Shown here piece after piece: positions 13,100-42,400 of a DNA stretch of 64,000 nt. Each line of letters begins with the position of its first letter. Position 1 is the stretch's first letter. A program made the position numbers and the translations under genes. The DNA lies in NCBI RefSeq assembly GCF_910592395.1, contig NC_088318.1:13888349-13952348 (forward strand), read 5' to 3'. The stretch is from Lineus longissimus (lineage: Eukaryota > Nemertea > Pilidiophora > Heteronemertea > Lineidae). The notes beneath the pieces were generated by a model. The model saw nothing but the letters and a program-made list of their open reading frames with translations. It was not told the origin of the DNA and did no database searches.

Positions 13100-14345
13100 T
13101 CTAAATCGGTCTGATCATCATGGATGTGACTGTCCATTTAGAGTACATCAGTCAGAGATATTAGGAGCTTGTAATCATCCATATAGCTTTGAACATTGGG
13201 ACATCATGGATGTGACCATCCATTTAGAGTAAATGGGTCTTGCTAAGATGTTATCTGGAGGTGGTGACTATACGTTTTTGGCTGAATACGCCAAAGACAA
13301 TATTAGGAGCTTGTTATCATCCATATAGCTTTGAACATTGGGACATCATGGATGTGACCAACCCTTTAGAGTACATGGGTCTGGCAAAGATGTTAGCGGG
13401 AGGTGGTGACTATACATTTTAGGCTGAATATGCCAAAGACATTATTAGGAGCTTGTTATCATCCATATAGCTTGGAATATTGGGACATCATGGTTGTGAC
13501 CATCCATTTAGAGTACATGGGTCTGCCAAATATATTATTGGGAGGTGGTGACTATACATTTTGGGCTGAATACGCCAAAGACATTATTAGGAGCTTGTTA
13601 TCATCCATATAGCTTGGAACATTGGGACATCATGGTTGTGACCATCCATTTAGAGTACATGGGTCTGCCAAAGATATTATTGGGAGGTGGTGACTATACA
13701 TTTTGGGCTGAATACCCCAAAGACATTATTAGGAGCTTGTTATCATCCCCGGGATATCATGGATGTGACCATCCCCATTTAGAGTATTGGGAGGTGGTGA
13801 CTATACATTTTGGGCTGAATACGCCAGACATTATTAGGAGCTTGTTATCATCCATATAGCTTTGAACATTGGGACATCATGGCTGTGACCATCCATTTAA
13901 ATGGGTCTTGCTAAGATGTTATCTGGAGGTGGTGACTATACGTTTTTGGCTGAATACGCCAAAGAAAATATTAGGAGCTTGTTATCATCCATATAGCTTT
14001 GAACATTGGGACATCATGGATGTGACCATCCATTTAGAGTAAATGGGTCTGGCTAAGATGTTATCGGGAGGTGGTGACTATACATTTTGGGCTGAATACG
14101 CCAGACATTATTAGGAGCTTGTTATCATCCATATAGCTTGGAACATTGGGACATCATGGTTGTGACCATCCATTTAGAGTACATGGGTCTGCCAAAGATA
14201 TTATTGGGAGGTGGTGACTATACATTTTGGGCTGAATACGCCAAAGACATTCTTAGGAGCTTGTTATCATCCATATAGCTTGGAACATTGGGACAACTTG
14301 GATGAGACCATCCATTTAGAGTTCATGGTCCTGCCGAAGACGTTA
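13100..14345. repeat. Tandem array of a 142-bp satellite unit, about nine copies
   Basis: The anchor AGGAGCTTGTTATCATCC recurs at 13305, 13447, 13589, 13731, 13836, 13973, 14113 and 14255, with a variant at 13163, so the period is 142 bp with one shortened copy (105 bp). Each unit also holds GGACATCATGGATGTGACC and GGAGGTGGTGACTATACATTTTG. The copies are highly similar and form overlapping false ORFs. The flanks (12725-13100 and 14345-14475) show no gene. Confidence 0.95.
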
Positions 14346-14474
14346 TCTGGAGGTTGTCGCTAATCATTGGGTATAAGCAAGTACACAATGTAGACAAGAG
14401 ACTAATCTATACTTGGTGTACAAATGTCAGAGAGAAACTAAGTACAACACGATTTCATCAACAATCACACTAAT

Positions 14475-17032: not shown

Positions 17033-20000
17033 CTACATCCGCTGCCTCAGAAAGAACGGGCAGAGCGATTGCCTGCTCTTCCAGTCTGTCTTGTAGACGA
17101 TGTCGTAGATGGGCAGAAAAAGCTTGGGGTAAAGCCTGTCGAAGTAGAATCGTGGGTTGACCAGATTCGACTGGTATTCCAGTGGCCTAAAACGAAAAGA
17201 TCAGCTTATAGCGGCTTAAACGACGCGTAACATCTCCCCAAAGGAAATATTTATATAATGCATGCCCCCCACACGAGAATCCTATAGGCCTAACGCGTTT
17301 GAATCCGAATTTTCTCGGACCCGCGACCATCAGCGTCGACGTCTTGTATGATTTGGCGTCTCCTACGAACGACGATGTCCGAACAACGAAGGCCTGTCGT
17401 GGTGACATTTGCCATTTCTTGTCAAGTTCAGTGTCAGTGGAGTCTTACATTTGCCTGAACCGTCTTGATGTGTCGCCAATGCATCTCAACAGGTCACATA
17501 CTGAACTTGAGTAGACCTCTTCTCCGCGGCGTAAGCCCACCGCTGCCGCCGCCGCCGCTACTGCTTGTTTCTGAAATCAGACAGAATATTGTGTGCAGCC
17601 CTCTCTGAGTACATAGAAGGTAGGGACGTGTCCTCCATAAATAAGCCAAAAGATGGAAAATTAAAGACTAGGCATGGGCGAATTGCTGTCAAGTTACACA
17701 TCTCTCGTTCTTACCCAGTCCGTGCATCCTATCCATTTCGCGTAAGAGTCGATCTCCTTTGTGACAGTGGTCTTCTTCCTGAAATGTTATGAAAATATAA
17801 TGGGTGAGCTACATCAAAAATACTGTGCCTTAGGAATTGTCGTATGGCTAAAGCAGTGTCGTTTTATACGATGGCAATGCCGCAACTTACTTTTCTCTGA
17901 CGTCACTTTGTTCAGCCACGGTGAGTATGAAGGCAAACCGCTTGTTTTCGGGCCAGAAAAGGGGATGACTGAAAAGGAGAAAATACCGATTCATTTCGTC
18001 ACAAAATTATCATTTGGGTGCGCACTGAGACTCAAATACGATGCACTCAATCATGAGTAATGTTACCTGAAAGGAAATTAGAGTGGATGGCTGGCCATGA
18101 TGTGAAAGGGCGGTAAAGCCGTTGAACATTTAAAAATTCAAGATTCAAACTAATCGGAGAAACAAAGTTCTGTTTGCATGTCGTCTTTCAGTCTCAAAGT
18201 GAGTATATATACATGTACTTACAGAAGACATTCACTGATGAATTTCCGCTTGTGCATATCAGGCGGTAGCATCCAGCTCAGGAGATGCTGGCCCAAGAAC
18301 CCCAGCCCCGCGCCGAACCGCGGGTTGCCCGACTTGATGTTGTGTTGGCATTGCATGGCGTCGTCGCCGAACGGGTGGAGTCCACCTGTCAGCACGTAGT
18401 GGATCAACATGCCAGCAACCTGCGAGGAAAAGGAGGTCAACAAAAGCGAAAGAATGTACACATATCTACATGACAAATCGTTTGTCTTTATTTCGGCCAG
18501 AGGAGTTCCAATAATCACGCCCCGGTCTTCGCTTTTCGAGTGGTCTCTTGCCAATTTTGCTTTGCTTACGCATTCTACTTCGCGGCGACGCTACTTATGA
18601 TTTCCTTCTGACCATGGCCACGGCCACCTGATGCAATTTCCATCCTTACCTGAACGTCGGAAGCTGACGTGTACGGGAAACCTTGATATTTAGGATTGAG
18701 CACCTCCGTCGGACACCAACAGACTGGAAAAGGTCACAAGAGAGTAAGAAAATGAATAACGCCAATAAACTTTATCACTGAACTTACGGGTCGTCCATAA
18801 AAAATAAAAAGAATGATAAATCATAGTCAGGGCCTGGTGGTTTGAAATAAGTTTTGTCACTAATGCTGGCATAAGTCTAACTTGGCGTTATCTCCTTCAG
18901 TTGAGCGCTTTGGACTAACGCCAAGTAAGTTAACACCAGCGTTAGTGATGAAACTTATTTTGAACAACCGGACCCAGCATAGTAATTGCCACAAAATAAA
19001 AATGCGATTTCGAGGAGAGGAAAGGCAATTCAACATACCACGTAGAAAACTAGTTGGGGACCAATGTGCTTACCGTTTAGAAGGCTTCTCAACGACTGAC
19101 TGTGAGCCTTTGGTATTCCGTAAAAAAGACCATAGTCCGAGAGCTTGACACGGCCTTCGGCGTCAATGATGACATTGGTTGGCTAAAAAGAAGACAGATA
19201 ATTCGAAAATGACAGTTGAAGCCGATCGTTTGCGGGGCACTTAATAGTCGCACACAAGATTGTTTATTTCGCCGCAATTTTGCAGTGTGCGTGCACCTCA
19301 AGGAAAAGCGCAGTGAGCCCTGGTATGCGAAGTCCCGTTTTTATTCTCTGGTCAGCTTGCACTGCAAATGTCCAGCATTTACCTTCAGATTCATGTGTAG
19401 CATGGCGACATCATGCAGGGCTTGCAGTCCGCACAGAATCTGGTAGCAGATGGGCAACGCCTGCGTCGTAAGCCTCCCCGCGTTGGATAACAGCATCATG
19501 TACTGCGTCAGGTTGTACTCGCACAGCTCCATGGCGAAATAGCCGAAATGGATGTCCTCAATGCAGTCCTGTCAACAGCAAGTAGTGGAACATGACGTTG
19601 AATTCAGGTCTTGCCCAATACGCAGTCTATACTGCCTTTAAACAAAGCCCGCTCGGACCAAGGCCTAAATTCCCATTGGTTACTGTCTTATCAAAGGATT
19701 GTCGGGGCAAATCTTGATAACATCAATCCCCCACCAAACCGCTTTCATGGGTCGATTGGCCTTTCAATGTCTGTCGCTGTATGCATCTGCTTCAACATTG
19801 TCCGCCAGAGTCATGCCAGTGTGCGCATGGTTAAATTTGCCAGAAACACTGGATGGCGCCAGATGTGAAAACCATGAACTGCCGCACATCTATTCAGGAC
19901 CATCAAATGCCTGTCATAGATTCATCTCAATAGAATGGGCTTGACCTTCTTGAACACCTGACCTCGACCTCGAATTAACTTACAAAATATCTTGCCAGGA

Positions 20001-23000
20001 ATCTGTTGTCCATCTGCAGTCTCCGCATCCTTGTCAACCAGGATTCTAAACTCCGGTAATTGACCTTCAGGATTCGCTTGAGCGCGAACTCATGGCCGTC
20101 ATAGGACATGCCGACCATCACCCTGACCCCGTTACTGAAATTAAAAAAACAGTATGATGAAGTGCATTGCGCGCACACTGCCGACTCAATCGAGAACGAT
20201 GGATGGAGCGACCGTGACAGACGATAGGATTTCCTGATCGGAGGAACCTATATAAACCCAGTGGGCTAATAGTTTCCATCACTTTGCCAAAGTATAGTAC
20301 CAGCGTCACCCTCTGTCGTGCGCATTGAAGTTCATGTATCATCGTGGACAATCAAACATTAACGGCAGGAACAGGAACGGCATCCAAAAAAATCCACAAA
20401 CCGAGAACTTCACATGCCGTTTCATGTGCGTTGCGATTTATATGAGGCGCATAGCAAGTAAATGGACTACATTATGAATGTCATGAGTAAACTAGGTGGA
20501 GGAACGATGATGCTACAGGGGATAATGCTGATAATGATGACGATGATGTTTATTATGATGATGGCGGTGTGAGCGTTAATTACCGATGGCTGTATATTAA
20601 AGAGCTCGGATCGCTGCTGCTGAACACGCCCCCTAATCGCAGCTGTATGTTCTCATCCAGGGCGAAGAGCCTCTTGAGTTTGTTGTGCCAGGCCAGAGAT
20701 CGAGGGATCCAAGAACACGGAGCTCCATACCCACCTCGAAACGGAGGGCTCTGGCCGAAACCAAGGGATGTTTCCTGTGGGTTACTTGGACTCCGGCACA
20801 AGCCAGGAGAAGGCTGGTTCGGGTCCGTTGGACTTGATTGAACTGAACTCTTCTGACTATCTTGAAGATTTTGTGACATCAGAGTTGAAAACCCCGGTGG
20901 CGGACTGGTAGTCTGAGGAGATTGATCCGAGTTGTTTTCCTGTAATGACTTCACGTCATGATGAGCAGCAACGGGTGGACTAGCATTTTCGTGAGAAGGT
21001 TGGTTGCCACGGTGGTCGTAATCAATGTTTGAACTTTTCCAATCGAACATACTCGGTATTTTGTCTTCTTCCAGAATGACGTCTTTATTCTGTGAAGTTC
21101 CACTTGAGCCGCTTCTAGGGGTGTCATGGCCAGATTCAGAGCTAACAGAAATGGGCACATTCCATTCAAGATTCCCGTCCGCTTCTGCTCGGAGCTTCGC
21201 CTCGAGATCGACCACCGCTATCGTCTGGTGGCGCTTTTCATGGCCAGTTGTTGGGTGACTGCAATTTTGTTCAAGGGAACTGGACGCTGATGCTATGAGT
21301 CTGGCTTCCAAATCTGATGCAAATATTGCGGTGCGTTCTCCCGCAAGTGCTTCGCGTTCGCCCTGTGAACTTCTACCTGAATTACCAGTACTCAGCAATG
21401 TCTCAAGGTCTTGGGCGAACACGGAGCCCGTTGGCATACTTGGAAAGAAATAGCCTGCAGGGGCGGCCCGCTGTGCCTGTGACAGGACCGTCTCGATATC
21501 GAAAACCTTAGGTGCCTTGGCGATTTTAGATTCAGGGTGGTCAAGATTTCTACGGAGATCTTCTGCAGGGAGTTTGTTTGCAAATGAAGTAAATTCCATC
21601 CCAACCTCTACCCCGTGATCCTGATTTGATTGTTCCACTCTTGGCGACGGGGATCCCTCCTTTACGAAACCCGCAGAGGCATCCAAATCGTCTTTGACTG
21701 ACATCCTGGCGATGTTTTCAACAATTCTACCAGGACCTTGGTTAGTTTGTGTTTCCTTTTGAGTTTGCTCAGCCGGCATCCCGTGACTCGCACAAGTTGA
21801 ATAGGACAATGCCGGTTGTTGTTCGACTTCCGCCATATCTGCAGTCGGACAACTTGAGTAGATATCCTCAGATTCCGAGTCGGAGTCACTACTTTCAGAT
21901 CCGCTCACATGAATGATAAACCGGGTTTGATCAGCCTCGCTTCTTCCGACGTTCTCGGCCCTGTATACCTGTTGAACGACGTTAGGTACAAGAGTTGAGC
22001 TGTGGACCATCTTACGGACATCGTATTCAGGCTGAGTCGTTTTCATGCCTTGTTCTCGTGGCTTGTTTCTTCGCAGGTCGGAGTCGGAGTCACTACTTTC
22101 AGATCCGCTCACATGAATGATAAACCGGGTTGGATCAGCCTCGCTTCTTCCGACGTTCTCGGCCCTGTATACCTGCTGAACGACGTTAGGTACAAGAGTT
22201 GAGCTGTGGACCATCTTACGGACATCGTATTCAGGCTGAGTCGTTTTCATGCCTTGTTCCCGTGGCTTGTTTCTTCGCAGGTTCCCACTCGGCATTTGAT
22301 TGGAGTCCATTATCGCTGAAAAGGACTTGTTTGCTACGTTTTCGAATACCACCTGGCTGAACATATTGTGCTTTTCGTTGTCTGTATCCAGTGCAAGATC
22401 GCCAGCGTCACTCTTTCTGGACGAAAGTTCAGTTTTCATAGTGTTTGGTTGTGACAGCGACTCCGGGCCAAGACCCTTCAATAACATGCCAATGTCATTG
22501 ACTTGCGGGATCTCAATGTTACTGTGGTACTTCCTAATAGTATATTCGCCAGTTTCTTTTCTTTTAGACGGCTCATTGCGACACGGTTCCACAACAATTG
22601 ACGAATGGGTGGTTTCTGATATCAAGTCTTCTCTCTTCATCTCCGAGGGCACCATATTCTTTTCGGTTTGTACACACAAAGCGTCCACTCCTAGAAGTGC
22701 TGGTTCTGTTCTCGCTGTAATCGTAGCCGAGTCGGCTAATTCCAAGTCCGTATCTGTAGTGATGTTCTCAAAGCATTCTGTTTCAGTCAACGCCACATCT
22801 TGCTCTACATCTGATGGCATTACTTCATTGGTAGTCATGGAGGACGCCGACTCGTTTTCTATGTAGTCGGGAGAATTTAATTTAGATTCTTTCAGGTTTT
22901 TTTTGCTGGTACAGGGCTCGCAGTCAATGGCAGCAGAAGTGTCAGTGTGTTTGTAGACACTTCGCCCATTTCCAATTTCCGGTTGAGGTTTCTCTGCATT

Positions 23001-26000
23001 TGATGGATGATTTGTAGCAGTTGCTTCGTGGCAAGCTATATCGGTCGCATTCTTAGTCTCTTCGCGGAACTGTCTCATGACTTCTTGTACCCTTGCTTCT
23101 ATAGCCTTAGCTATCCACTCCGGCATGTCTTCCCAAGCAGGTGGTTGAGTGTTCATCGCATTTGAGCCCACCACATTCGGTGGAAGTTGTCGTTGGTGTT
23201 TTGCATGATTATCGCGTGTTGGTATTTTCACATCAGCATCGTTTTCCGTTCGAGTTGCGTTGGCCCCTGCACCATGCAGATGTGAATTAGTCAGAACTTC
23301 ACTCCAGGAAATATTACCTCTTTGCTCAGGCTTGCCGTCCTTTTCAAAACCGGTGTTCTGCTCAGGCTTCACGCGAGGATCGATTTTAAGAACGGGCTGA
23401 GCTGGCCCGACCTGTGGTTCTGCTTTCGGTGGATGGATCGAAGTGACCACTTCTGCTGGTGTATCTTTGTCCCAATCAATGACAGTAGCAAGGTTCTGAT
23501 GGCTTCTTTCGAATTCTTCACCCAGGTCCTTCAAGGTCGTGGGATTCGGCTTTTTATCCTTAACAGGCAGTTTGTGCAACCCATCCAAGTGCACACCAGC
23601 ATGTGGAGGGACTTTCTCCACGGGTAGAGTCGGAAACTCCTTCGTATCAAGCCCGTAGTCACCAGCCCGCGCAGGGCGTCTCACAGTTCCCTCGACTCCG
23701 CGTGCTTTCATGAAAGCTTTCGCATTTTCGAGTTGCACTTCTTCATTTTTGACTGGAGATTCCTTCAACCTATTGATGAAATCGTTGTACGTTTCCGTTG
23801 ATTTCTTCGGTGTTAATTTGTTAACCTTTATGTGTGAAGATCCGTCAAACAAATTTTCAATGGGTGCAGGGACGTACGTACCTCGGGGTTCTTCCTGCGT
23901 GTTCTGGGCTGGCCAGGCAGACTTATCTTTAATCGCCTGAAGACGTTGGTTATCGTTGGCCTTCTCTTTAAGTTTATTCATTTGACTCTGGAATTGTTTA
24001 TTTGACATACCGGCAGGAATGTTCCTCCTCACTGGAATAGGCCTTCCGCCTGTGCTTCCACAGTGTTGCCTGTTATGGTTTCGGGCAGGGGCTTTCACAG
24101 TCGAAGCGAAGGCGTGTGACTTCGGAGCTGCAATTGATTCAAAAGTAGGTCTACCATTCGGCAAAGGTTTTGGCTTCTTTGTGGCGGACTTTTTGGTGAC
24201 TTTAGCAAATCCTGTGTAATTCTCCGTCGTATTCGTAGTCGTCGTGATAAATCCCCAATATGGACCATCCTCAGTAGCCACAGCATCCCCAGCATCCGTC
24301 CGCACCTCGTCAGCTTCTTGATCGCATTCAGGACTTCGCTGGTCTTTCTTTTTGTCATCAGGTGTGCTGAAAATACCATAGTCCACATCTTCAGGGGAGT
24401 CGACGGAGGATAACTCCGCATCAAGTTCCTTTGTTTTCGAGGGAGTGTCAAAGATACCACAATCTGCATCATTTCCAGCATCATGATCGGACTCATCTGA
24501 ACTCACGATTGAACCTGTCTTTTCCTTCGCCTCCTCGCGTTTTTGTTGTTGTCGTCGCTTCTTCCGGTCTCGCTTTTTTTCGCGTTTTCTCTTCTCGGCC
24601 TCATCCTCTTTAATCAGCTTGTTCATGTTTTTATCCGCAACGCATCTTTCGATGCAATATTTCACAACGTCGATGTTTTTAGCCCTTCCGTTTATATCAT
24701 CGGCGGTCTCGCACCGAATCAACTGAACACATGGGACACTGAACCTCGGGTGAACTGGAGGTTGCATACGACCGCAAAAGCGGCCCTCGAAGTTTGTGAC
24801 TTTAGTCCAGCGTTGAAATTCCTCTCCGTGCTTTTCGACCCATTTTCTCCCTTCATCTTCGCTGCATAAAAAACTTATAATACGGATAAAGTTGAACATC
24901 ATGATGTCGTCTTCCTGGTAGATAGTGACGCACTTCAGAAGTAATTCATCTGCGTTTAGGGAAAAAAAGTCAAGGACGACCGCGCGTTGAGTTTCAGGTT
25001 TCAACGGACGCAAGCGGCAGCGCAGAGCGGTCAACATGAGGAACCATGGTATCAATCGATGCAGTACGTAGCACTGTTGGTCGTGATCGTCTAGGCTTGC
25101 GTCCGATTGGTCCATCAGAACACCAATAGCAGTTCGCCGCAAATCATTCGGCATTAGGCTGGCTTCGAGGAGAAATAGCGGCGGAAGAGATACCATTTCA
25201 GTCAACATGAGCTGGGGGTCCAGTGTGTTTCTCTTGAGAACGTAGATTCGTCTTCTGACGTAGGTTTTGACTAAAGACTTCTCAATGAGTTTCTCCCCCA
25301 GGTACTTCATGCAGTAGTCCGTGGTGTAAGCGGTGACTAGATTGTATGCGGTCCACTGACCCTGAAAAGATGGATGAGCCCGGTTAAGAATGTCACAGTG
25401 AAGGGAAGAGCGTGGTGACCTGTCAGCAAAAGTGGCGACGTGTAGAAATTCAACGAGGTAGATGTATGCAGAGGGGCATTCGCACTTACGCCTGAAGGTC
25501 GCGGCCAGGAAAGGCAAAAGCTGTGTCTTCTATTCCAACATGAATTTAGTATTGGTAGTCATCATTTTACTCACGTCATTAGTGGCTGCCAAGATGTTTG
25601 CATCGCATTGCTCCACGAGGTACTTCATCATGTCCCTGTTGGCTCGGCTAGCAGCTATGATAAGTGCTGTCATCCCGTTCTGAAATCATATTCATAGTTA
25701 CTGTATACCTATCCGCAGAAGAGAGCAGTTTTCTCGCGGAACCAACCACAGGAAACGCCTTAGTGGGTCCACACATAGACCATCGCCATCAGTATAATAG
25801 TTTTGGGAATGTTCTGCAATATGAATAAACGGCTATTCCTTAGCAGCACTTACTTTTGTTGTTACTTCCGTGTTGACGTTGATACCCTTCCAATCCTTCA
25901 TCAGCTTCAGCGCCCTAACATTACCAGTTGATGCCGCGACGGTGAACGCGCTGTAACCAGTCTTGTTCTGGATGTTGACATCGGCGCCGGCCGCCAGAAG

Positions 26001-26987
26001 CAGACGGGTGATCTCAAGGTGGTTGTCGGTATGGATAAAGACAGCTTCCATCAGAGCCGTGTTGCCATTCTTAAAGGTTAAAAAGTATTTTCACGACAGT
26101 CTAGCTCATATTTATTATCAATTTAAGTCAAAACCTACTTCATACAACATCTCAGAAACTGAAATGCGGTTTTCAGCAGACATTTTGACGACTAATTATG
26201 CGCCATGGCACGTGTTATCAGCCATGAAAAACCCTCACAACGGCTTGTTTTACATCGATTTGTTTGTTGAAATACATTTAATTTTACACCACATACGTGT
26301 ATATATGTCATCAGTTTTCATATCCACCATTACTTACGTCCTGTTGCCTGTTGACCTTGGCGCCGTTGTCAATGAGCATCCTGACCATCAGCAGGTCGCC
26401 TCTAGCGCACTCCAGGTGCAGCATGGGCGTTTTATTCTGATGATACGAAAATGAACTGAATCACATAAACTTAAGGGAAGACAATCACGAAACGCTTATA
26501 GAAATGAGGTGTATATATTGAGCGGCCCGGACAAAATGTCGTGCTCTTGGGAGTCACGCTCTATAATAGTGAAATTGACAGTTAGAAACAATAAAACTCA
26601 AAGATTTATAGATATGGACATCTTATTGGCCTACTTTATTTAACTCACCGTGTCCGCCACAAAGTCGACACTCGTAAATTCGAACGTTGCAAGGTTCTGT
26701 TCCGGTATCACTAGCTCTGGTACATAATCATGTAGCTTCAATTTACTGGTGAAAAGATCCTGGATATCCAGGACTTTGACCTGGCGACCATTGAAGCTGA
26801 CGGATTTAAGTTTTTTTGCAAAAAATCGATTTCCTGTGGATAATCTCTGGACCTTCCTGTAGCCGTTTTCATCGCCATTTCGTGGACAGTGAAAAATGGA
26901 AACGAACTTCTCTGCAAGAAGCTCGCCTATCAACAAAACGTCATGTACTTCATCCATGTTGACTATATTTAGATCGGTTATTTTCAT
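17033..26987 (-). CDS. RNase L-like protein: ankyrin repeats, very long linker, pseudokinase, KEN domain
   Basis: Fourteen exons keep frame to give 2,223 aa: 26987-26649, 26436-26338, 26069-25854, 25679-25575, 25361-20584, 20134-19984, 19568-19383, 19182-19074, 18723-18650, 18419-18223, 17968-17891, 17778-17715, 17570-17449, 17186-17033. Residues 1-113 are an unrecognised domain; about 114-300 are ankyrin repeats, one per exon (NKTPMLHLECARGDLLMVRM; NGNTALMEAV). A huge exon holds a helical part, a Lys/Arg-rich block near 510-545, then low-complexity sequence to about 1820. The kinase-like domain has FALKRI (K1865), but HMNLKPTN for HRDLKPxN and SDYG for DFG. The KEN part has HPLFWPENKR, DLLRCIGDTSRRFRQ and YFDRLYPKLF. 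RNase L has ankyrin/kinase-like/KEN order and cuts RNA when 2-5A dimerises it; here the catalytic Arg and His positions are Gly2164 and Arg2169. Exon phases and domains are secure; function is inferred. Confidence 0.9.
18831..18975. mobile_element. MITE-like inverted repeat in an intron of the RNase L-like gene
   Basis: GTTTGAAATAAGTTTTGTCA (18839-18858) onward and its imperfect reverse complement (ending AAACTTATTTTGAAC near 18965) form arms of about 50-60 bp around a 25-nt loop, in the intron 18724-19073. Mismatches suggest some age. Confidence 0.65.
19603..19790. repeat. Dispersed repeat family, copy A
   Basis: It shares GGTCTTGCCCA, CTTATCAAAGG, GGGCAAATCTTGAT and GGTCGATTGGCC, in the same order and spacing, with 43378-43575. 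It lies in the intron 19569-19983 of the RNase L-like gene. Confidence 0.6.
21873..22280 (-). repeat. In-frame 204-bp tandem duplication inside the RNase L-like coding exon
   Basis: Two adjacent copies (22280-22077 and 22076-21873) encode 68-residue units that start LRRNKPREQGMKTTQPEYDV and end in a Ser/Asp run. They differ at very few bases; one protein difference is EADP versus EADQ. Near identity implies a recent duplication or gene conversion. Confidence 0.95.
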
Positions 26988-28035: not shown

Positions 28036-31000
28036 CTATTCATGATTGACGGTCGTCAGAATGGACGAGACTGATGCGGGTCGCCTGTCAGTCTCACTCG
28101 TGTCGTCCGCCTCCGAAGGTTCCGAAGCTTCCTTGACCGATATCTTCCTCGCCACCGGAGTTGCGGCCTTCTTCGCCATGAACTGCTTGTAGCCGAAGAA
28201 GCACCCGACCCCAGCACCCGAACAGGCGAGGATACCGACGACGGCACCCACTATTGCCCCGGCGCCACTCGGTTCTGGCTCCGGCTCGGTCACTGGAACG
28301 AAACGAATCTATGAATAAGCTTAACATTTGGTAGCCAGAATCTTTAAAAAGTTATTCACGAAAAACTCGGCCAGCGTGATGAAGGGTGACAAACAACTTG
28401 CGGAAAGAATCTTCTTGCAATGCAGCCATGGTTGGGCGTGGACATCTTGCTGACTATGGACTTCTCAGAAGGCCTCTATAGATTTATTCGCCAGAAGGGA
28501 GGAATCCATCACAAGTCGATTTTCGATCTCATATCAAAATCCGAACCTCAGTATTATTTGAATGGCTCACCTGGCTTTTTGGTCGTCTTCACCGGCGCCG
28601 GGGTCGGTGGCGGGGAAGGCGACGGCGACTCACTCGTGCTTGCAGTTGGCGGCGGTGCAGTCGTTGGGACGTATACCCAGTTCCCAAACGCCTCAACCTC
28701 ACACAAAACCAACGTATTATTGACAGTGTTGTTCTTTATGATGATCATGAACCGTCCAGTCACGTTATTGGTGCACGTGATGTCCACGTATTGTCCAGGA
28801 GCGACTGTTTTGTTAAGTTGTGCGCAGGTTTCAAAAGTCCATGACCCGCCGGCTGGTGCATTCGTCGTGGTCACTGCAGGTGGAAATGAAAACTGTCAGA
28901 GAGGAATTATTAAAACAGCCAATAATACCGAGCTTTTCTCTTGAACAAAGAACAGACTTCCGCCATTGATATGGCATTCGCTTCGTTTTGAGAGAGTTCT
29001 AATTGCTTTAGGATTTCAAGTTCTGCCAAAATGGTGGTGGCATGGATGGTCAACCTTAAACAACGAACAATTCAAGGTGTTTCCTTACCTGTAGAGCTGT
29101 TGGATGTAGTATTTGATCCCCCGGATGAAGGGGATGAACCAGATGTCGAGCTTGGGGCAAAATACGCCCCTGGGTAGCGGATGTTCAAGTCTTCCTGGTT
29201 GAAGTCCATAGTCAGCAAGATGTCCACGCCCACCAAGTTGTCGTCTGTGAGTAAGGGAAGAAGGAACTTAGACACTGGTGACAGAGAGTGTTAGAATTTA
29301 TTACGATTCTCATTACCAAGGCGGGTATATCACATTGGCATATATATGGCTTGTGTACGTTAGCAAAGTTTGAGGGAGTTCGATGACCTTCTGGGCAATT
29401 TCCGACAAATGTGGCATTGAACTTCGGGAAAGATTGTCTGGTGAATAGAATATTTCATTGTGTGATCTTCGATGGCACTCGCCCGAATCTGTCATCGATA
29501 GAGCGGTCAGGCTGCATAGATACATGCCTTTACGCACTGCCATGGCAAGGTGATTTAGAAACGAGAACGCTTGCCCTTTATTTGTCTACTTATTCGTTCC
29601 AGTGCTAAGCCGTAGTCCCAACAGAACCTACCACCCGAGTCAGCACTGTTTGCTATGATGACTCGTTTGATGTTATAGTAATCATCCATGTCAACCATCC
29701 ACCATTCATAAGGGTTGACCCCCTTGGTCTGGGCGCAAGATCCTCCAGCAATCTTCGGGTTTGGTACCCCGTCATTGGCCCCTTGAGATGAGTCCGCCCT
29801 TCCGGAGCCTTCTGTGGAAACTTTGGCGATTTTGTTAAGCAGAAGATTGGCTGAAACAACAGAACGCAAGTTTTGTAAATCTTTCCTAAGTGCCAAATCA
29901 TTTCATATTTTGCATACATGTATTTCGACCCCAAAAGAAAGGGTTGTCTAAATATTGGCTTTTTAAGCATTTCCTACAATTTTTGAACACCATTCGGCAC
30001 ATCTATTTAGAAACTGAAAAACTCACTTTTGTTGTACGTGTAGATCTTCCCGAACACCTCAACCTCGCAAAGTACCAAGGGTTTGTTCTGCGCGGGCGAC
30101 TTCAGAAACAGGACGAAGCGACCTCTGGCGCCCCCTATGCACGTGGCCTTCACAGCCTCCCCTGGGTACAGTGTCTTGTCATTCTTGAAACAGGGTAAGT
30201 ATGATGTCCTGAATACGTCATTGGTGAAGAGTTCTCTGGTGATTCTGCCTTCTACTCCATCAAGGCCCTTGTGGGCGTCGAAGCCTGTAGTACAGAAGAT
30301 TTTCAAACAGAGCTCATTCCTGACGACTACACCTATTATTTGTCAATCTGATTGCATGGAGCAAAAGTCTCCTCAAATTTAACTTTTCGGATCTAGCAGG
30401 CAGTGAATCATTTATGATGAAAGCAAACAGAGGCAAATTGAAAAAGTGAGTCACCTACCGCATGAGGGGCACTTGGCGCTGGCCATCATGACCATACCAC
30501 TGACTGTATACGTCTTGACCAAGTCCACCGCCCACCACTCCGTAGCAAGCTTCCCTGCTGTACTGGAACACCTCTTCCCCAAGTGGTAGTCAGGGGAGAG
30601 CACACCATCTACAGCCATGGATGGCTTGGATTGAGCAAACATTGCGTTACTCTGGTACGCTTTCTTTTTCAGTGCCAAGTTCTCTGGAAGAAAAAAAGGA
30701 CATCATCTTGAGTTTATGAAATACATGATGATGTACTATGTATATGTACATGAAATCTTCAAGCACATTTACCAGAGACGAGCGTGATCTCTAACAGATG
30801 TGTATTGCATGGACTAGGTGCGGTCTTGTACAATCATATTAGGAATGCTGCCTTGAAAAAAGCATTGTGCCACGTTTTTATTCCGCGCTTTCCATGGAAC
30901 TTTCATTTTGGCCTAGCGCAAAGCGCTCATCAGATTGATACCTTGCAGTCGTACCTCTGTAAGGCGAACCATACACCGATAGCTCGCACACACTCAACGG

Positions 31001-34000
31001 ACTGTTCTTATAGAAGTTGTTCTTTCTTAATACCACGTGCTGTCCAACAAGGGCACTTTCGCAATGCATTGACCTTGTCTCACCGGAAGTCATGGATTTG
31101 ATCACTGCGCATGTCTTGAAGTAGTTGGAGGCAAATTTTGAAGAGTCAAATTTCTCGACGACGCTGACGTAAACGTCCTTCATGAGGCTGGCTACATGAT
31201 AACAAGCATAGATTATGAGCTTTAAAAAATAGGAAAAGTTTAAACAAGCATTTACTAGTCCTTATCAATATCACCTAATGGCGAGTGAGGAATCAATCTG
31301 GACCCGTCCGTTTTGAATATTGTCACACATTGAGAATATTGAGTTTGACCCGGTTTCGATCCTTCGGTGCATGTGACAGGTGTAAAGAATAGCAATGTAA
31401 GTCACACAGTAGGCAAGTCCCTTGACCTATGCATCTTTACAAGCGAAGGCCAAGCTCTCGTGACTCGGACATATGCGCCTTGAACTACCTCTTCTTTCCA
31501 CCTTGTACCTACCCCATTTGTTCCGATTCGTCACCGTCACCTTCCTGATAATGTAGCTTGCCGCCAAGTCAACCCCGATCCATTCATACGAGTCCTTACC
31601 GCCGGTCATCGCGCAGGACCCTTCGTCATAGTTCGGGTTCCTCCACCCGTCCACCGCGAGACCAGCTCGGCCTCCAGTCCCGGCTTGGTTGCTACTTTGA
31701 GAGGCAGTCTTCTTTAGGGCAATATTTGCTGGAAAATTATAAGGTTGTAATTTGAAATTAACGCTGGAAGGCATTCAACGTGCTTTGACTTTTATATCAT
31801 AGGAACGTTATACTAATTCATCACTGCCAGCAACACGTGAAACAGTTTCAATACCATATCGCCTCATTAACATTCATTATTAGACGCCACTGTAGCTTAC
31901 AATTAGCATTCTGAACCATCAGAGTTAATCGGTCCGTTACCTCCCCTGGATTCCGGGATGGCGGAGTGCATCCAAGGCTAGAGGGTCAAGATGGCAATTA
32001 GTTAAATTTCGTCAATTTTGAAAAATAGAACTAAAAACTGTCTAATATATTTTGAAACACATAGTATACACCTACGCCATATCAGAGCAGTGTAGATCTC
32101 CACTTCACAAATGGTCAGCGCATATGACGTATCTGATGTCTCAATGATGACGAATCTCCCGTTGACGGCTGACGTGCACGTCAAGCTCTCTACGGAGGGA
32201 CTGACCATAGTGCCAGTGTAGTCGAAGCAGGTCTGGAACGTATTACTGGAGTAGCTGGCGGAGTTAAACGAATCCGTCACAAGGATTTTAAACTTCCGTA
32301 AACAATTGGCTGAAAAAAATGTGATTTGAAAAAATGAACTGTTTGATAAAGCTCCATATAAAAAAACTCGGATTTCTTCAGAGTTTTGAACAGTTAGAAT
32401 ATCGGTATACTTTGTGGCTTCTCTTCTATCCATCGTGGATTTTTTCCGTAGAACAGTGCGCTTACCGTTTATCAAAGCTTATCAGGAACCAATCGCCACT
32501 TACAGCCACAAGACTTGACATTAGATATCTTCAGGCGGCTAATTCTGTATGTAGCCCGTAAATCCACCGACCACCACTTGGGTCCTGTCTGGGTCTTCAA
32601 GGTTTGTGAACAGGTCTTCTTGGAGAAGTCAGGAGAAGCGTCACCGTCAACAGCCAGAATGGGGTCATAATGCCAGTAGGTTGAACTCTGCTTGGATGGG
32701 CCAGCATAGGCCAAATTTGCTAGAAATGAGATCAAATCTCGTTTCATTAGAAATTCTATAGTGCACGTATAACATGTGATGATGGATATGAGGTGTCCTC
32801 TATTGGAACTCTGTCTCAGGACCAAAAGACCAAATGATCGCTCCCGTGGAAAAATGCTTTTTTGTCGGTAAGAATTAGGTGAAGTTTATTTTCGACCAAT
32901 GAGTATTGACAAGTGACGACAGGAATTCTATATAGACCCGGTCGGCAAGGCAAGAATTGATAAAGACCAGTCTCTTTATAAATTCTTGATATTGGAACTC
33001 TTACCATCGTGTTTCGCGCCATAAACTTCGAATTCGCAGAAGTACAACGGACCCTTCTTCGTCCCCATCACGGTGACGTATCGACCGTAGTTAGGTTTGC
33101 ACTTGGTCTGCCAAGACATTCCTGCCGGAATTGACCACCCGGCTGGTGATTCATAACAGGGTAGGTAACTCTTGCTATCTATCGCTGCGGGGTCGAAGTC
33201 AACCGAGGAGACAATTTTTAAATCGCTCAGTGGTTCTGAAAATGCAAACACGTGTGTCAAAATGTATGTTATTTACCCATTACAAAATAATGATGGGTTT
33301 ATCTTGTAAATTATTCTGATATTCATGCACACTAGTACCTTTACATATCATGTAGAAAACTGTTTAGAAAATAACAACCAAATTGATACCGATTAAAAAT
33401 GATCTACTTATTGCAAAGCTTTTTTTGTACAATTTCGTTTCGCCTTGAGCTAGCTGGGCGTGGCGCCGGATTCACCCGAAAGGAGACTACTGGTCTAATC
33501 ACGGATTTAAATCAGATATTGTACACAAGTCCGTGGTATAATCTAAAAACCGATTTGATCAAAATTATTAATGCTCGCTTATATATTTTTGATTAGGTGA
33601 ACCAGCGTGTAAATACACGGAAACAAAGTTTTCCAGTGGGCCGAATTGAAATCTACTTACTATCCTGAAGAGTTGTCAGTATGACCTGATGAATCCTGTA
33701 CACCTTTAGCAGATCTACCGTCCACCAATCCTTAGCAGCCGTACCAGTGGTCGAGATGCACTTCTTTGCGGCGAATGACTGCGGGGCAATCGCACCATCG
33801 ACGGCTTTGGCGGAGACGCTGTTACCGAGGGCGGTGTTGTCCACCTGCATGGCTTGTTTGAACAGGGCGAGGTTGTCTCCTAAAGAGGAGCAAGGATCAA
33901 AAAGTGCTAGATTTAGGTCAGGCCAGCATAATTTTATGAAGATATCGATAACTACACAACACTCATTGACATAAAAGGTTTTCGAGCTTGTGAACCATCG

Positions 34001-37000
34001 CTTTTCTGCAGGTTAAGGCTGTCTCCCCGGCCAGCTGAGCAAGCAGAGGGGCACCAACATGGAGAAGGAGGAGGCCTAACTATTTCCCGGGCATATCACA
34101 AGAAGGCCCTTTCTGACCACGATGACACTTCACATGTTCGTCGAATGTTGTTCCAGCAAGAAGAGGGGCACCAACATGGAGAAGGAGGAGGCCTAACTAT
34201 TTCCCGGGGATATCACAAGAAGGCCCTTTCTGACCACGATGACAGTCCACATGTTCGCCGAATGTTGTTCGAGCAAGACGAGGGGAACAGCATCAGGTTG
34301 TCTGCTGAAAATTCCAAAGGTACAGCTTGGTTTGCAAGGTACAACAACATGCTGGTTCCCGTGCAACAGTGAATTCCCGTATTGCACACAGTAAAATCGG
34401 ACGTTGGAAGGTCACGCACCTTTATCAATCCAATCAGCTCGCTGTTGTTTTCGAAAGGAGGCCGGTTTGAAATAAACGAGCGGTCAAAGTACTGTACCAG
34501 TTGGTACTGTGAAAGCGTTCCTCCCTGCGTAAGTCTGGGAAAAACTTATGAGCGTGTGAATAGCACCAAGTACTCTTAATTTGAAAATGCTTAAAGACGA
34601 TTTCAGGTGAGTGAGTGACATGGAAATCTCGTGGTTCGAATAAAGGTGAATGGTTTGGTATACCTACCGTTCGGTGCATGTCCCAGCACCTCCACATTAC
34701 TAATCGCTAATGACTTCATGCTAGCGTAGGCCTTTATGATGATAACAAACCTAGCCAGCTGTTTGTCGGGGCAAAACAAGGAAATGTGTTCGCCAGGTTT
34801 CAGCGCGGGTTGGCCAATCCCCGCACATTCTTTATACCCGTCCATGTCAATTCCCTTCATCCCCGAAGGAAGAGTGACCTCGTTTTTGGTGAATTTATTC
34901 GATGTGTAGACGGTCGTGTAGCCCAAGAGGTATTCTGAAAGTCAAGTGTGAACATGTGTCAAAACGTTATCGCTGCGGATCATGTCTAACATTATCCACA
35001 GCCTGATGGTTCGGCCAGGTGTTATTCACTGCCTCTGTGATGTGTAGCATAGCACATATAGCACGCCGGAGACATCATAGGGTCCGATCGCAGTCATACT
35101 GTGTAAGTGAAACACCCTGACCGCGATCTTGGCCAAATTGCTATAGCCGCGACCCAAGCCTCTCAGGCACCTCACATGATAAGAGAGCGAGTGCAAGTCT
35201 CGATCGGGGTATGTCGTAAATTCACCGAAGGGTAACCAAACTTACGTTTGTCGATGACGCTGAAGTACATGACGGACGAAAGCGACACCTTCCTGATCTG
35301 GAAGGTCGTAGCCAAGTCCACCATCCACCACTTGTAGATGCCTGGGTCTTTTAGCACAGATCGGAACACTGCCCCGTTCTCGAAGTACTGACTTCCCCAG
35401 CCGTCCACGCACCTGGATGGCTCCATGTTAGTCTGAAGGGCGCCGTACATATCCGCACTTTTCTCACAACTCACGTCATCTGTAAAAGAAGCGTAGATGA
35501 TAAATTCGTCCAAGACGGTAAAATTAAGGATTCGATAGCAGTCATCATCAATGCCTTTACCATAAACGAGTTCGCCACCCGTGCACCAATCATTCTCACG
35601 ATTACGGTACGCAGTTTGTACTAATGAAAGGGACTCATCTTGTGTTACACCAATGAAGATAATTTTTTTTATTCAATTTTCTTGAGATGACAAGTCAATG
35701 TCGGGCATGTTGGCCCTGATTAATCAGTCCAGCGTTTTTTGTTGTTCCCCATATGTTAGTCTTTCAATACAACACTTACTATGTATGATATTCCGACGGT
35801 AGACTTCCACCTCGCACAATGTAAGATAATAATCAGCAGGTTTCTTGTAAAATATGACATATCGGCCGTGAGCAGGTTCCGGGCAGTGGAACCACTTGCT
35901 GCCCCCTTTTGACACATCCAGCTTGGTAGACCCAATAGAGCCGCACTCTGTCCCATTCGTCCAGGCCAGTTTGTCGCCAGTCTGCGCTACCGTAGCGGTA
36001 ACGTAGATCTTGGTGTTGGCAGCTTGATCTAAAAAGAAAAAAGTCGGATATTGAACAGTGTATTCAAGTAGAATTTTCCTCCTTCAAATCTTGCCATTTG
36101 TAAGGGTTACGAGGCAGCTGGCTTTATCTGACTTATAGGACCTCGCATGGCCTTCGAATGTGTTCTGTGAGTCCTCTCCCGAGAATGAGGTTGTTTTATG
36201 CGACCGTGCAAGTGAGTGAGGTTGTTCCTCTGCTTCAAAAGAGGTAGTTCTAATAAGTCCTCGCCTTCAGAAGATGTTGTTCTATTAGACCTGACCTTCG
36301 AATGAGGTTGGTTGTTTTATAATGGGACAGGACGATATGCACGTCAAAGGTGTGGTTCCGAACAAGCGAAATCATTGCTAATGCAATGTGCAGTAGTAGC
36401 GACACCTTTGCGTCGCTTGCTGCATCTTATTCTGGTCACATGATTCTTATAATATAAAGACTCCCTTTAAAATAACAACTCACAATATGTCATTCCGTTC
36501 AGATAAAAGATTGAACCGACATCATATGTCTTGCCCAGGTCCACATACCACCAGTGGGGGTTGGTTTTCTTCAGGAAGGAAACTGCGCAGGAGAACCGAA
36601 CTTCGTTGCTCTCCCGATTCCCGTCCACCGCTCGCGCTGACCCATACGAGGTCGACGCCACGGACGAGATCTTCGTCGTTTTTTTGAAAGCAAGATTTTC
36701 TGCAAGTTTGAAATGCATAAGTGATGTCATGATGTTGAACTGTGACGAAAGATGTGTACTCAAAACGCTATAAAGGATCGAGTATTAAAAAAGGAACACT
36801 TTCGTAAAATATCATCAACAAATTCATTAGCTGCATGTAGCTATAGCTACACCCTCCGGAATTCAGTTTTACAATTTCAGATTTTGAGTGGATAGCGTGC
36901 AGTCGGCTGACAAATGACCACGAAGATAGGACAGCGCAACCGATTTGTGTCCGGCAACACCCATAGAGTATGAAATGCGAAATCAATCTGAAGGAGGCCT

Positions 37001-39446: not shown

Positions 39447-42400
39447 TTACATGTAGTAAGAATCGTATTCGCCACTCGAAGACATGGAGTCGTTTGTATC
39501 ATCATCGGAAAGAACCAACGCGCGACAGAAGACGGGCAGGGCATTGCGTCCACGGTAGGGGAGGATGTCGAGTATACGATGAAACTGATTTTCGAAATTG
39601 TCCTGCATGACTTCGATGAACATGGCTTTCGTAAGGACTCTGCAATGTAAAGATAACCTCATTGTACATGTACAACATAGAAAAAACACGCCAACGCTGT
39701 TATATGCCAAGAGGCTCAACAGCTTCAAATTTAATAATGGGAGACAAATAGCAGGCGTACATGCATGGTCTCAGATAAAAGGGAAAGTCGGTCTCGTTTG
39801 ACTTTGTGATAAAGCTTGTACGAGCGCAAACAGTGGCGATGATATATTCGATTCATTCATCAACCCACTACTTACTGCAGACGCGTAGCCTGCAAACCTT
39901 TCTCTTACGTACCCGTTTGATACGAGACTTTTGATGAAGTTCTCTCCGTTGGTCAATGTCATTTTCTCAAGGAGAGAACCGCGGTTTTCCCGGATGAATT
40001 TCCTATGCTCCTCTGGCATGGGCCTGCCCTGTAGTGGGATGCTCGGCATGGGTGAGTCACCATCACTGGTAGGGACGCTTTCTCTACAAAAAACGGATTA
40101 TAGGAACAGCGCAAATAATTAAGAAGAGTAAAGGTTCTTTTCGGATTCTTTTGCATTGAATTGTCATTGCAAAATCGAAATTCTGTGAACTGGTGCATTG
40201 TTTCAGCATTCGAGTGTTCTAAGACAGATTTTTGCCCGCTCGACTTTACCTATATACACGTACTCCCTTCAATAGTTTACTTAGTATCAAATCAGGTTTT
40301 ATTGGAAAGTGTACTTTTGATTTCCCTACTTACTTCATGATTTCCAGGGCATGGAACTGGTCAGTGAGGGTAAGTGCCTTACAGAAGATGGGGAATGCCC
40401 GCCTGCCAACCGTCATTAGCATCTCCAACATCTTCTTACTCTGAGCTCGGCGCCCCGGCTCCTCGGAGATTTCCGCCACTAGGCCTTCGGTGAATATCCT
40501 GAAAAAATCAATTGAGGAAAGTAAAACACCAAAGGCTCATGTTGGCGGCATTTGAGAAAGGGGAGGAAAAGTGAAAAATAGATGTCTCTTCATAACTCAA
40601 CGCCACTGGTATTTTAAAGAGGGCAGGCGTATTCTTGTCATTTAAGACATCACAACTCACCCTTCTGCTTTCAAGACTTCGAGTACTCCCCCTGGGGCAA
40701 CCTCATTCAACAGAGAGTCGAAATTCCCTAACAAGATGCTGCGATGTTCTTTCTCCATAGGAATATCCTTGCGCTTGTGTTTCTTCAGAGCCTGCACGAG
40801 AATTTTCGAGGCCATTTTGAATTCCGCCTTATCAAGTCCGTCGATACCAACACCACTCATAAAAGACGTTTCTAGATTATGTAGCATGTCTTTGACGCCC
40901 ATGAAAATCTTTCGTTGATTTGGGATATTCTTTCCCAACAATCCTATTATTTCCGGCGCAATATCCTTTTTCGAGCAAGCTAGGTCGTAGGCCGAGTTTC
41001 CATCTGCGTCAGGGATTTCGAATGCGTTAGCGTTAGCTTCTAATAGAAGCGTCACAGCTCTAAGACAGTTGTGCTCCACGGCAATGTGGAGTGCCGTGCG
41101 GTATGCATTATTCTGAGTGTCAATATCGTGCATCCGAGTCAGAAGGCGCTTGTATGTTGCCTTTGACAGGCCCGTCCCCATTGTCAAGTGGGGAATAACT
41201 GACTTCCATTTGTCATCTAGGTCTTGTTGTGACCATTCCATCCATTCTAGAGAGTCTGCCGTAAGTTCGTCCCTCGATGCGAGATGCAGCGCATTGTTCC
41301 CATCACGGTCTGCTATGTTGGGATCTACATTTTTATTGAGCATGTGGTCAACTGCTTCGTTGTGACCACAATCTATTGCAGAGTGCAGGGGTGTGTAGCC
41401 GTTCACGTTACGCGTCTCAAACACTCCGTGGTCAGAAACCTTGATCAGTTTAGAAAGCAGGTCAGTGTGTTTACATATGTGTAGGACAGTATTTCCGCTG
41501 CAATCCTTAACCCCTACATCACAACCAGCCTTCAGAAGCCTGTCGACGTAAATCACTTGGTATTCCCTCTTTGCCTTTAGAGCAACATGCAAGGCCGTCT
41601 CTTTCGAGACTGTCGAGGTTAGGTTGACGTCATATCCGACGTCTATGAGATCTTGCGCAATCTTGGGGTTGTCTGAGTACAGAATGGCCGCATGTAAGGC
41701 ATTATAGCCTTGATTCTTCGCTGAGCCAGAACTTTCACCTTCAAGCTCAAATTTTTGTGATTGAACTTGGACCGAGACTTGCTGCATGACACATTCCATG
41801 GAGCTCTTTCCGTCAGCGCTCACTTCGACGACGCTCGACCCAGGCTGCAGAGACATCAGCTCCAAGCCCGCCAAATGAGGCAAGACTTCCTCAGGCAAGC
41901 CCTCAGTCATGTCAGCTAATGTCGAAAAGCCCTGGCCGAGGGAAAGAGTTGTAGGCACATCGCCATCACTTGACTGTATCGAAATTGGTATTTCCTGAAA
42001 AAGGATGAAAATAGCTGACCTTCATTGTATGCCAACCAAGAAAAGTGCATTGTACTCAACTACTGCACATGATAATAATTTAATTTAAAACGGCTCATTC
42101 TCTTAAACCACAATGTTGGTTGGATGTAATGAGTTACAGTTATAAAAACAGTGTTTTTGACCGTGATTTGTGTTTTTAAAAACCCGCTAATTGCGCTAAT
42201 TAGATTTGTAGAGGAAGAGTAGCAATATTTTACGACGCAGTTATGGGCGAATTCTGCGTCATACGTGCTATGGTTACCCTTTTCATCACAAAAACATGTC
42301 AACAAATTAATTGACACCTGATCATCGCGTGAAAAGGGGTGAGAAGAGGTGAAAGGTGAAAATCCGTCAAGTAATAACCGAAGCGCAGCGATACGATAAG

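Follow-up and report, generated by a model that had tools for sequence, protein, structure and literature searches.

RNase L joins nine ankyrin repeats to a kinase-like domain and a KEN nuclease domain, an architecture that is already known. It binds ATP through its pseudokinase, which is believed to act as a scaffold for homodimerization (PMC4718504). In yeast Ire1, the H1061N substitution alone lowers activity at least 3 × 10^5-fold. The mutant protein oligomerizes like the wild type, and in mixed oligomers it first boosts wild-type Ire1 activity about tenfold and then inhibits it (PMC3149027). According to a survey of HEPN domains, 95% of KEN domains conserve the catalytic motif, so that KEN domains without it are on record (PMC3710099). 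Here we analyze a 64,000-nucleotide stretch of the genome of the nemertean Lineus longissimus (contig NC_088318.1, positions 13,888,349 to 13,952,348 of the forward strand; hereafter the window), in which a gene on the minus strand, running from 26987 to 17033, encodes ankyrin repeats, a kinase-like domain and a KEN domain. Our analysis supports reading it as one intact gene that has lost the catalytic residues of both the kinase and the KEN domain, with the KEN domain still recognizable.

The KEN domain, with its apparently dead nuclease site, occupies residues ~2085-2223 (exons 11-14, positions 17033-17968, minus strand) and matches the Pfam family Ribonuc_2-5A at 1.1e-10, scoring 42 bits where the cut-off is 23. 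When a profile of this domain and those of its insect relatives was searched, the only significant matches were IRE1 (3e-10) and RNase L (2e-7), and both the profile and the structural match to KEN place the domain in the KEN/HEPN fold. In place of the IRE1 catalytic block RNKKHH, the protein reads GDTSRR (17460-17477, minus strand), as revealed by an ungapped alignment from DLLR to P with the IRE1 encoded in the same genome (DLLRCIGDTSRRFRQMP against DLLRAMRNKKHHFRELP), where anchors on both flanks fix the register at the block. The places of yeast Ire1 R1056, N1057 and H1061 are taken by Gly2164, Asp2165 and Arg2169, and Tyr2152 is retained at the place of Y1043. No His follows His2086, leaving none in the KEN domain proper, and no Arg-His pair of the R-x4-6-H kind is present in the protein. 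This confirms the initial annotation, which had read the block as CIGDTSRRFR with Arg, Asn and His changed to Gly, Asp and Arg.

The kinase-like domain (residues ~1829-2110, the end of exon 5 plus exons 6-11, positions 17891-20636, minus strand) is a pseudokinase of the IRE1 type. It matches Pfam Pkinase at 8.3e-21, and when the kinase-KEN module was compared with PDB, IRE1 was matched at 5e-32 and filled the first 16 of the best 60 rows. The HRD motif has become HMN, with Asn1956 (bases 19391-19389) replacing the Asp, a loss that had also been noted at the outset, and the VAIK Lys1865, KPxN Asn1961 and DFG Asp1974 are kept.

Three uncharacterized insect proteins, from Halyomorpha halys (LOC106684537, P0007), Nezara viridula (P0001) and Periplaneta americana (P0008), share the architecture and domain order of the Lineus protein, an HxN pseudokinase and a KEN remnant lacking the catalytic His at its place. 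Pfam reports no KEN domain in these relatives, so the family is easily overlooked. The HRD Asp is an Asn in all four proteins; in none does the catalytic His stand at its aligned place, the same is true of the catalytic Asn, and the Tyr is retained throughout (4/4). The place of the Arg holds Gly in Lineus, Lys in the stink bugs and Arg in the cockroach (IRAC), and the catalytic loop is deleted from the stink-bug KEN. The question posed at the outset, whether the Arg/His loss is shared, is answered by matching losses in the relatives found, with the Arg itself kept in the cockroach, and these losses argue against an assembly error. In a six-row tree that did not include RNase L, and in which the row for the same-genome IRE1 was joined by hand, the Lineus and insect proteins stood apart from two IRE1-type proteins (100/99). 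The Lineus protein is 29-33% identical to the insect ones, and the cockroach protein is 40% identical to those of the stink bugs. A single old loss in the common ancestor, kept since, is likely from these alignments but not proved, because the Lineus and insect proteins have lost the site in different ways; separate losses are the alternative. Both stink-bug proteins (P0001 and P0007) also repeat once the pseudokinase segment from LHYLH to the ADFG region, with HSK for HRD in the second copy.

Our homologue searches required shared five-residue words and had length limits, and the family may be spread more widely than seen here. A search with a shortened construct of 1,021 residues found no homologue at E≤0.001 among 2,423 candidates, a negative that carries no weight because local scoring of P0001 and P0002 against the region of this construct gives 91 and 81 bits. 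As a conserved family of insects and Lineus longissimus in which both activities would be dead and a helical domain and a long tail are present, the group appears to be new; judging from titles and abstract openings among the literature matches listed, none was recognized as describing a doubly dead ankyrin-pseudokinase-KEN family.

The order of ankyrins, kinase-like domain and KEN is indeed that of RNase L, by both Pfam and the gene model, but the descent from an antiviral RNase L that the initial annotation drew from it is unsupported. For the C-lobe and KEN of the Lineus protein, the match to IRE1 (6e-14) is better than those to RNase L (1.8e-6 and 0.0024). The ankyrins do not favor RNase L, which appears at 4e-23 among the best 60 of 301 matches together with many ankyrin proteins, a comparison that is a weak test because high scores are usual for long repeat arrays. 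The evidence reaches no further than probable descent from an IRE1-type kinase-RNase; RNase L could still share an ancestor with the protein, since it may simply have evolved fast. Exon-by-exon searches, within their limits, found no intact RNase L-like gene in this genome, and the relatives that were found are insect proteins. When the C-terminal 424 residues were searched against the genome, the matches beyond the locus did not extend into any KEN domain, that of the same-genome IRE1 included. A Pfam scan of the genome picked up IRE1 (two matches, three candidates scored) and missed the KEN domain of the Lineus gene itself, so these searches do not prove that the genome lacks other KEN genes.

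A wider history can be drawn, which we consider rather unlikely: the ankyrin-kinase-KEN fusion would have arisen early in animals and lost both activities before the split between Lineus longissimus and insects, surviving as a nucleotide-gated receptor or a partner of IRE1, with vertebrate RNase L as the branch that kept the nuclease and the non-catalytic sister line predating vertebrates. Were this true, the RNase L architecture would no longer be a vertebrate invention, and outside vertebrates the lasting value of the fold would be signaling and not cutting. Published accounts disagree: RNase L was reportedly not found in four sponges or in eight further lower metazoans possessing OAS (PMC6307210), which puts the output side of OAS signaling outside vertebrates in question, but an RNase L homologue is listed among the poly(I:C)-responsive genes of Nematostella (PMC8476169). 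The present family offers a candidate for where RNase L came from, and also for an IRE1 relative that is dead by nature.

The gene model, rebuilt from the raw sequence, comprises 14 exons and 2,223 codons with a single, terminal stop. All 13 introns (112-449 bases) are bounded by GT-AG with matching phases, in agreement with the earlier claim that the exons join without a frame break, and the donor sites fit the donor consensus at 6-8 of nine positions. Of the 58 matches at E≤1 in the 424-residue genome search, 10 fall at the locus, one for each of exons 5-14, which is not independent proof of these exons because the query was built from them; those outside the locus cover the kinase part (best 2.7e-7), and no second copy of the gene was found by this search. 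Exon 1 (26649-26987, minus strand, residues 1-113) is an open frame whose donor, ACG/GTGAGT, is in phase with exon 2. Its 113 codons match no Pfam family and have no visible counterpart in the insect relatives, and for this reason the N terminus, the start codon and the limits of exon 1 are unsure. Intron 13 as modeled (donor AAT/GTAAGA, acceptor CGTTTTAG) gives back the length of the KEN domain and the R-x-[LM]-P anchor. Another frame within this intron contains RNGKCHH (frame-0 open reading frame reading ...LTRNGKCHHDRPSLFGHRRS), with Arg, Asn and His rightly spaced, which we rejected: it lies about 24 codons past DLL, whereas the KEN Arg is the third residue after DLLR, no GT-AG pair was found to join it, and its frame, read by eye, stops after HRRS. 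An intron of the same-genome IRE1 splits the catalytic block between RNK and KHH, and that of the Lineus gene sits within the Met codon after FRQ. Intron 8 contains an inverted repeat (18830-18975) with 40-base arms that are 80% complementary and 66 bases apart, resembling a small miniature inverted-repeat transposable element.

Exons 2-4 (26436-26338, 26069-25854 and 25679-25575, spanning 25575-26436 on the minus strand; GT-AG, phase 0) encode ankyrin repeats in residues 114-253; Pfam places the ankyrins at about residues 130-250, with the best Ank family at 1.9e-24, and there are about three to five repeats. Exon 5 (20584-25361, minus strand; 4,778 bases, residues 254-1845) holds the end of the ankyrins, a helical domain, a disordered stretch and the start of the kinase; its frame stays open for 1,649 codons and joins exon 6 in phase 2. 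The helical domain (24561-25361, minus strand, residues ~254-520) is predicted to be all-helical at low confidence (predicted local distance difference test, pLDDT, of 54), and in the model it is perhaps armadillo-like. In Nezara and the cockroach this domain holds a hydrophobic stretch (P0001 ~194-214, 19-residue mean 1.9; P0008 ~296-324, 1.8), lacking in Lineus (best 1.4), that could be a buried or a membrane-seeking helix. The disordered stretch (20661-24560, minus strand, residues 521-1820) was judged from composition and includes an in-frame tandem duplication of 204 bases, or 68 residues (21877-22282, minus strand; five mismatches in 204). Of the ~1,570 residues from 254 to the kinase, the giant disordered insert described at first therefore accounts for about 1,300, and residues ~254-520 are predicted to be helical instead. 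Between ankyrins and kinase the insect relatives have about 470-750 residues, in ranges chosen by hand. PPPGF occurs in the Lineus stretch at residue 1740 and EFPTL at 828; PPPGF is common to Lineus and both stink bugs, and EFP[ATS][LV] to Lineus and the cockroach, both motifs having been chosen after the fact and neither being present in all four members.

At the level of sequence, the gene is an intact member of an animal family that no longer has the residues for phosphotransfer and RNA cleavage but retains the kinase-KEN module. We infer that the family arose when an IRE1-type cytoplasmic kinase-KEN module was joined to ankyrins and that it works without catalysis, and we consider the whole reading, an intact member of a family with this origin and mode of action, somewhat probable. 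Since both chemistries were lost and the module was kept, regulated pairing is its most likely use. The most likely mechanism, though one open to real doubt, would make the protein a nucleotide-gated scaffold instead of an enzyme: the ankyrins and the helical domain would bind a ligand or a partner protein, the pseudokinase would bind ATP and the kinase-KEN module would pair in the manner of RNase L and IRE1, a switch that would present or cluster the long disordered tail, whose short docking motifs (candidates PPPGF and EFP[ATS][LV]) would recruit partners.

Several observations weigh against this reading. Dimerization, ATP binding, ligand, location and expression are predicted properties, and the irregular glycine loop (GGVFSSS) speaks against ordinary ATP binding. 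The site was lost in different ways, by substitution in Lineus and by partial change or deletion among the insects: in the cockroach the Arg place still holds an Arg, with HH following 18-19 residues farther on, unaligned to the catalytic His, and the stink bugs have a Lys at that place and a His three residues on, which aligns at the RELP place and is not the catalytic His. Only four members have been seen, and the three from insects represent two lineages. The best PDB match of the Halyomorpha kinase-KEN part is IRE1, but the matched stretch stops near the start of KEN. The alignment from which the cockroach model was built included an IRE1-like row, and the kinase part of this model has a pLDDT below 50.

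The alternatives make use of much of the same evidence. That the gene is a decaying pseudogene or an artefact of the gene model, through a fusion of exons from two genes or a misassembled KEN exon, is highly improbable; the match is divergent, the insert very long and the gene known from genomic sequence alone, but all splice sites and phases are intact, exon 5 itself already codes for the glycine-loop region of the kinase, and the three insect proteins share the domain order and likewise lack the His at its place. The dead kinase-KEN module might instead pair in the cytosol with the active IRE1 of the same genome, activating it allosterically or titrating it as the engineered H1061N Ire1 does, and this seems unlikely. 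That genome encodes an IRE1 with HRD and RNKKHH intact (read by eye), the Lineus protein has no strong transmembrane stretch (best 19-residue mean 1.4), and the tenfold boost by H1061N Ire1 before inhibition (PMC3149027) provides a precedent; yet the interaction is a prediction, the two proteins are only 27% identical over kinase-KEN so that their interfaces may not match, and the more hydrophobic helical-domain stretches of the cockroach (1.8) and Nezara (1.9) make a cytosolic place uncertain for the family.

A receptor for a nucleotide second messenger, with ankyrins that detect an oligonucleotide of the OAS type and a dead kinase-KEN module that relays the signal, is quite unlikely. The domain order is that of RNase L, the 2-5A receptor, and the genome has an OAS-like gene (contig C14:15918795-15919217) with one open frame of 363 residues and OAS1_C above the cut-off, whose Asp residues resemble the OAS catalytic triad, apparently intact. 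Against this, the protein has about three to five ankyrins compared with the nine of RNase L, its own show no preference for RNase L, and 2-5A binding is putative. It is just as doubtful that the dead KEN binds RNA, as proposed for inactive HEPN domains (PMC3710099), with the tail recruiting mRNA-repression factors (GYF proteins) through PPPGF. The PPG-phi motif binds the GYF domain of GIGYF2 (PMC12171015), PPPGF is expected 0.0004 times in the shuffled Lineus tail and occurs in both stink bugs as well, and basic residues persist in the Lineus KEN (SRRFR, LRRGE); however, PPPGF was picked after the fact and is missing from the cockroach, the looser PPG[FILMVWY] is expected 0.08 times in the Lineus tail, and the whole basic block is missing from the stink-bug KEN.

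Elsewhere in the window, a satellite-like array of about eight copies of a 142-base unit lies at 13159-14354. A further ankyrin open frame of 453 codons (40663-42021, minus strand; Ank_2 3.6e-33) may resemble the ankyrin part of an NF-kB p105-type protein. At 28557-36083 on the minus strand lie several short open frames, similar to one another on inspection by eye; the one examined, 29558-29902, has F5/8 type C (galactose-binding) matches just under the cut-off, and the region may be a cluster of F5/8 type C exons.

In comparison with known systems, the Lineus protein resembles RNase L in the order of ankyrins, pseudokinase and KEN, in that no phosphotransfer is expected and in having kept the KEN domain. 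It differs in having G, D and R in place of R-N-x3-H (Arg667 and His672 of RNase L in the initial annotation), Asn for the HRD Asp, fewer ankyrins, and an inserted helical domain with a disordered stretch of ~1,300 residues. With the inactive HEPN domains of Swt1 and part of MtlR it shares the loss of R-x4-6-H, for which RNA binding instead of cutting has been proposed, but neither of these is a KEN domain joined to ankyrins and a pseudokinase, and the passages concerned in that survey do not describe the present family (PMC3710099). The insect relatives differ from it in the shorter disordered stretch, a KEN domain unseen by Pfam and, in stink bugs, the duplicated kinase segment. IRE1 is its nearest relative over kinase-KEN among solved structures, with the same succession of an IRE1-type kinase and KEN and the same retained Tyr, whereas the Lineus protein carries ankyrins in place of the luminal part and has lost the HRD Asp and R-N-x3-H (HMN, GDTSRR). 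No luminal domain was detected in it, its Pfam matches being confined to ankyrin, kinase-type and KEN families, and hydropathy revealed no strong transmembrane helix; the IRE1 of the same genome is a separate, intact gene on contig C1 with a transmembrane-like stretch, HRD and RNKKHH, all read by eye.
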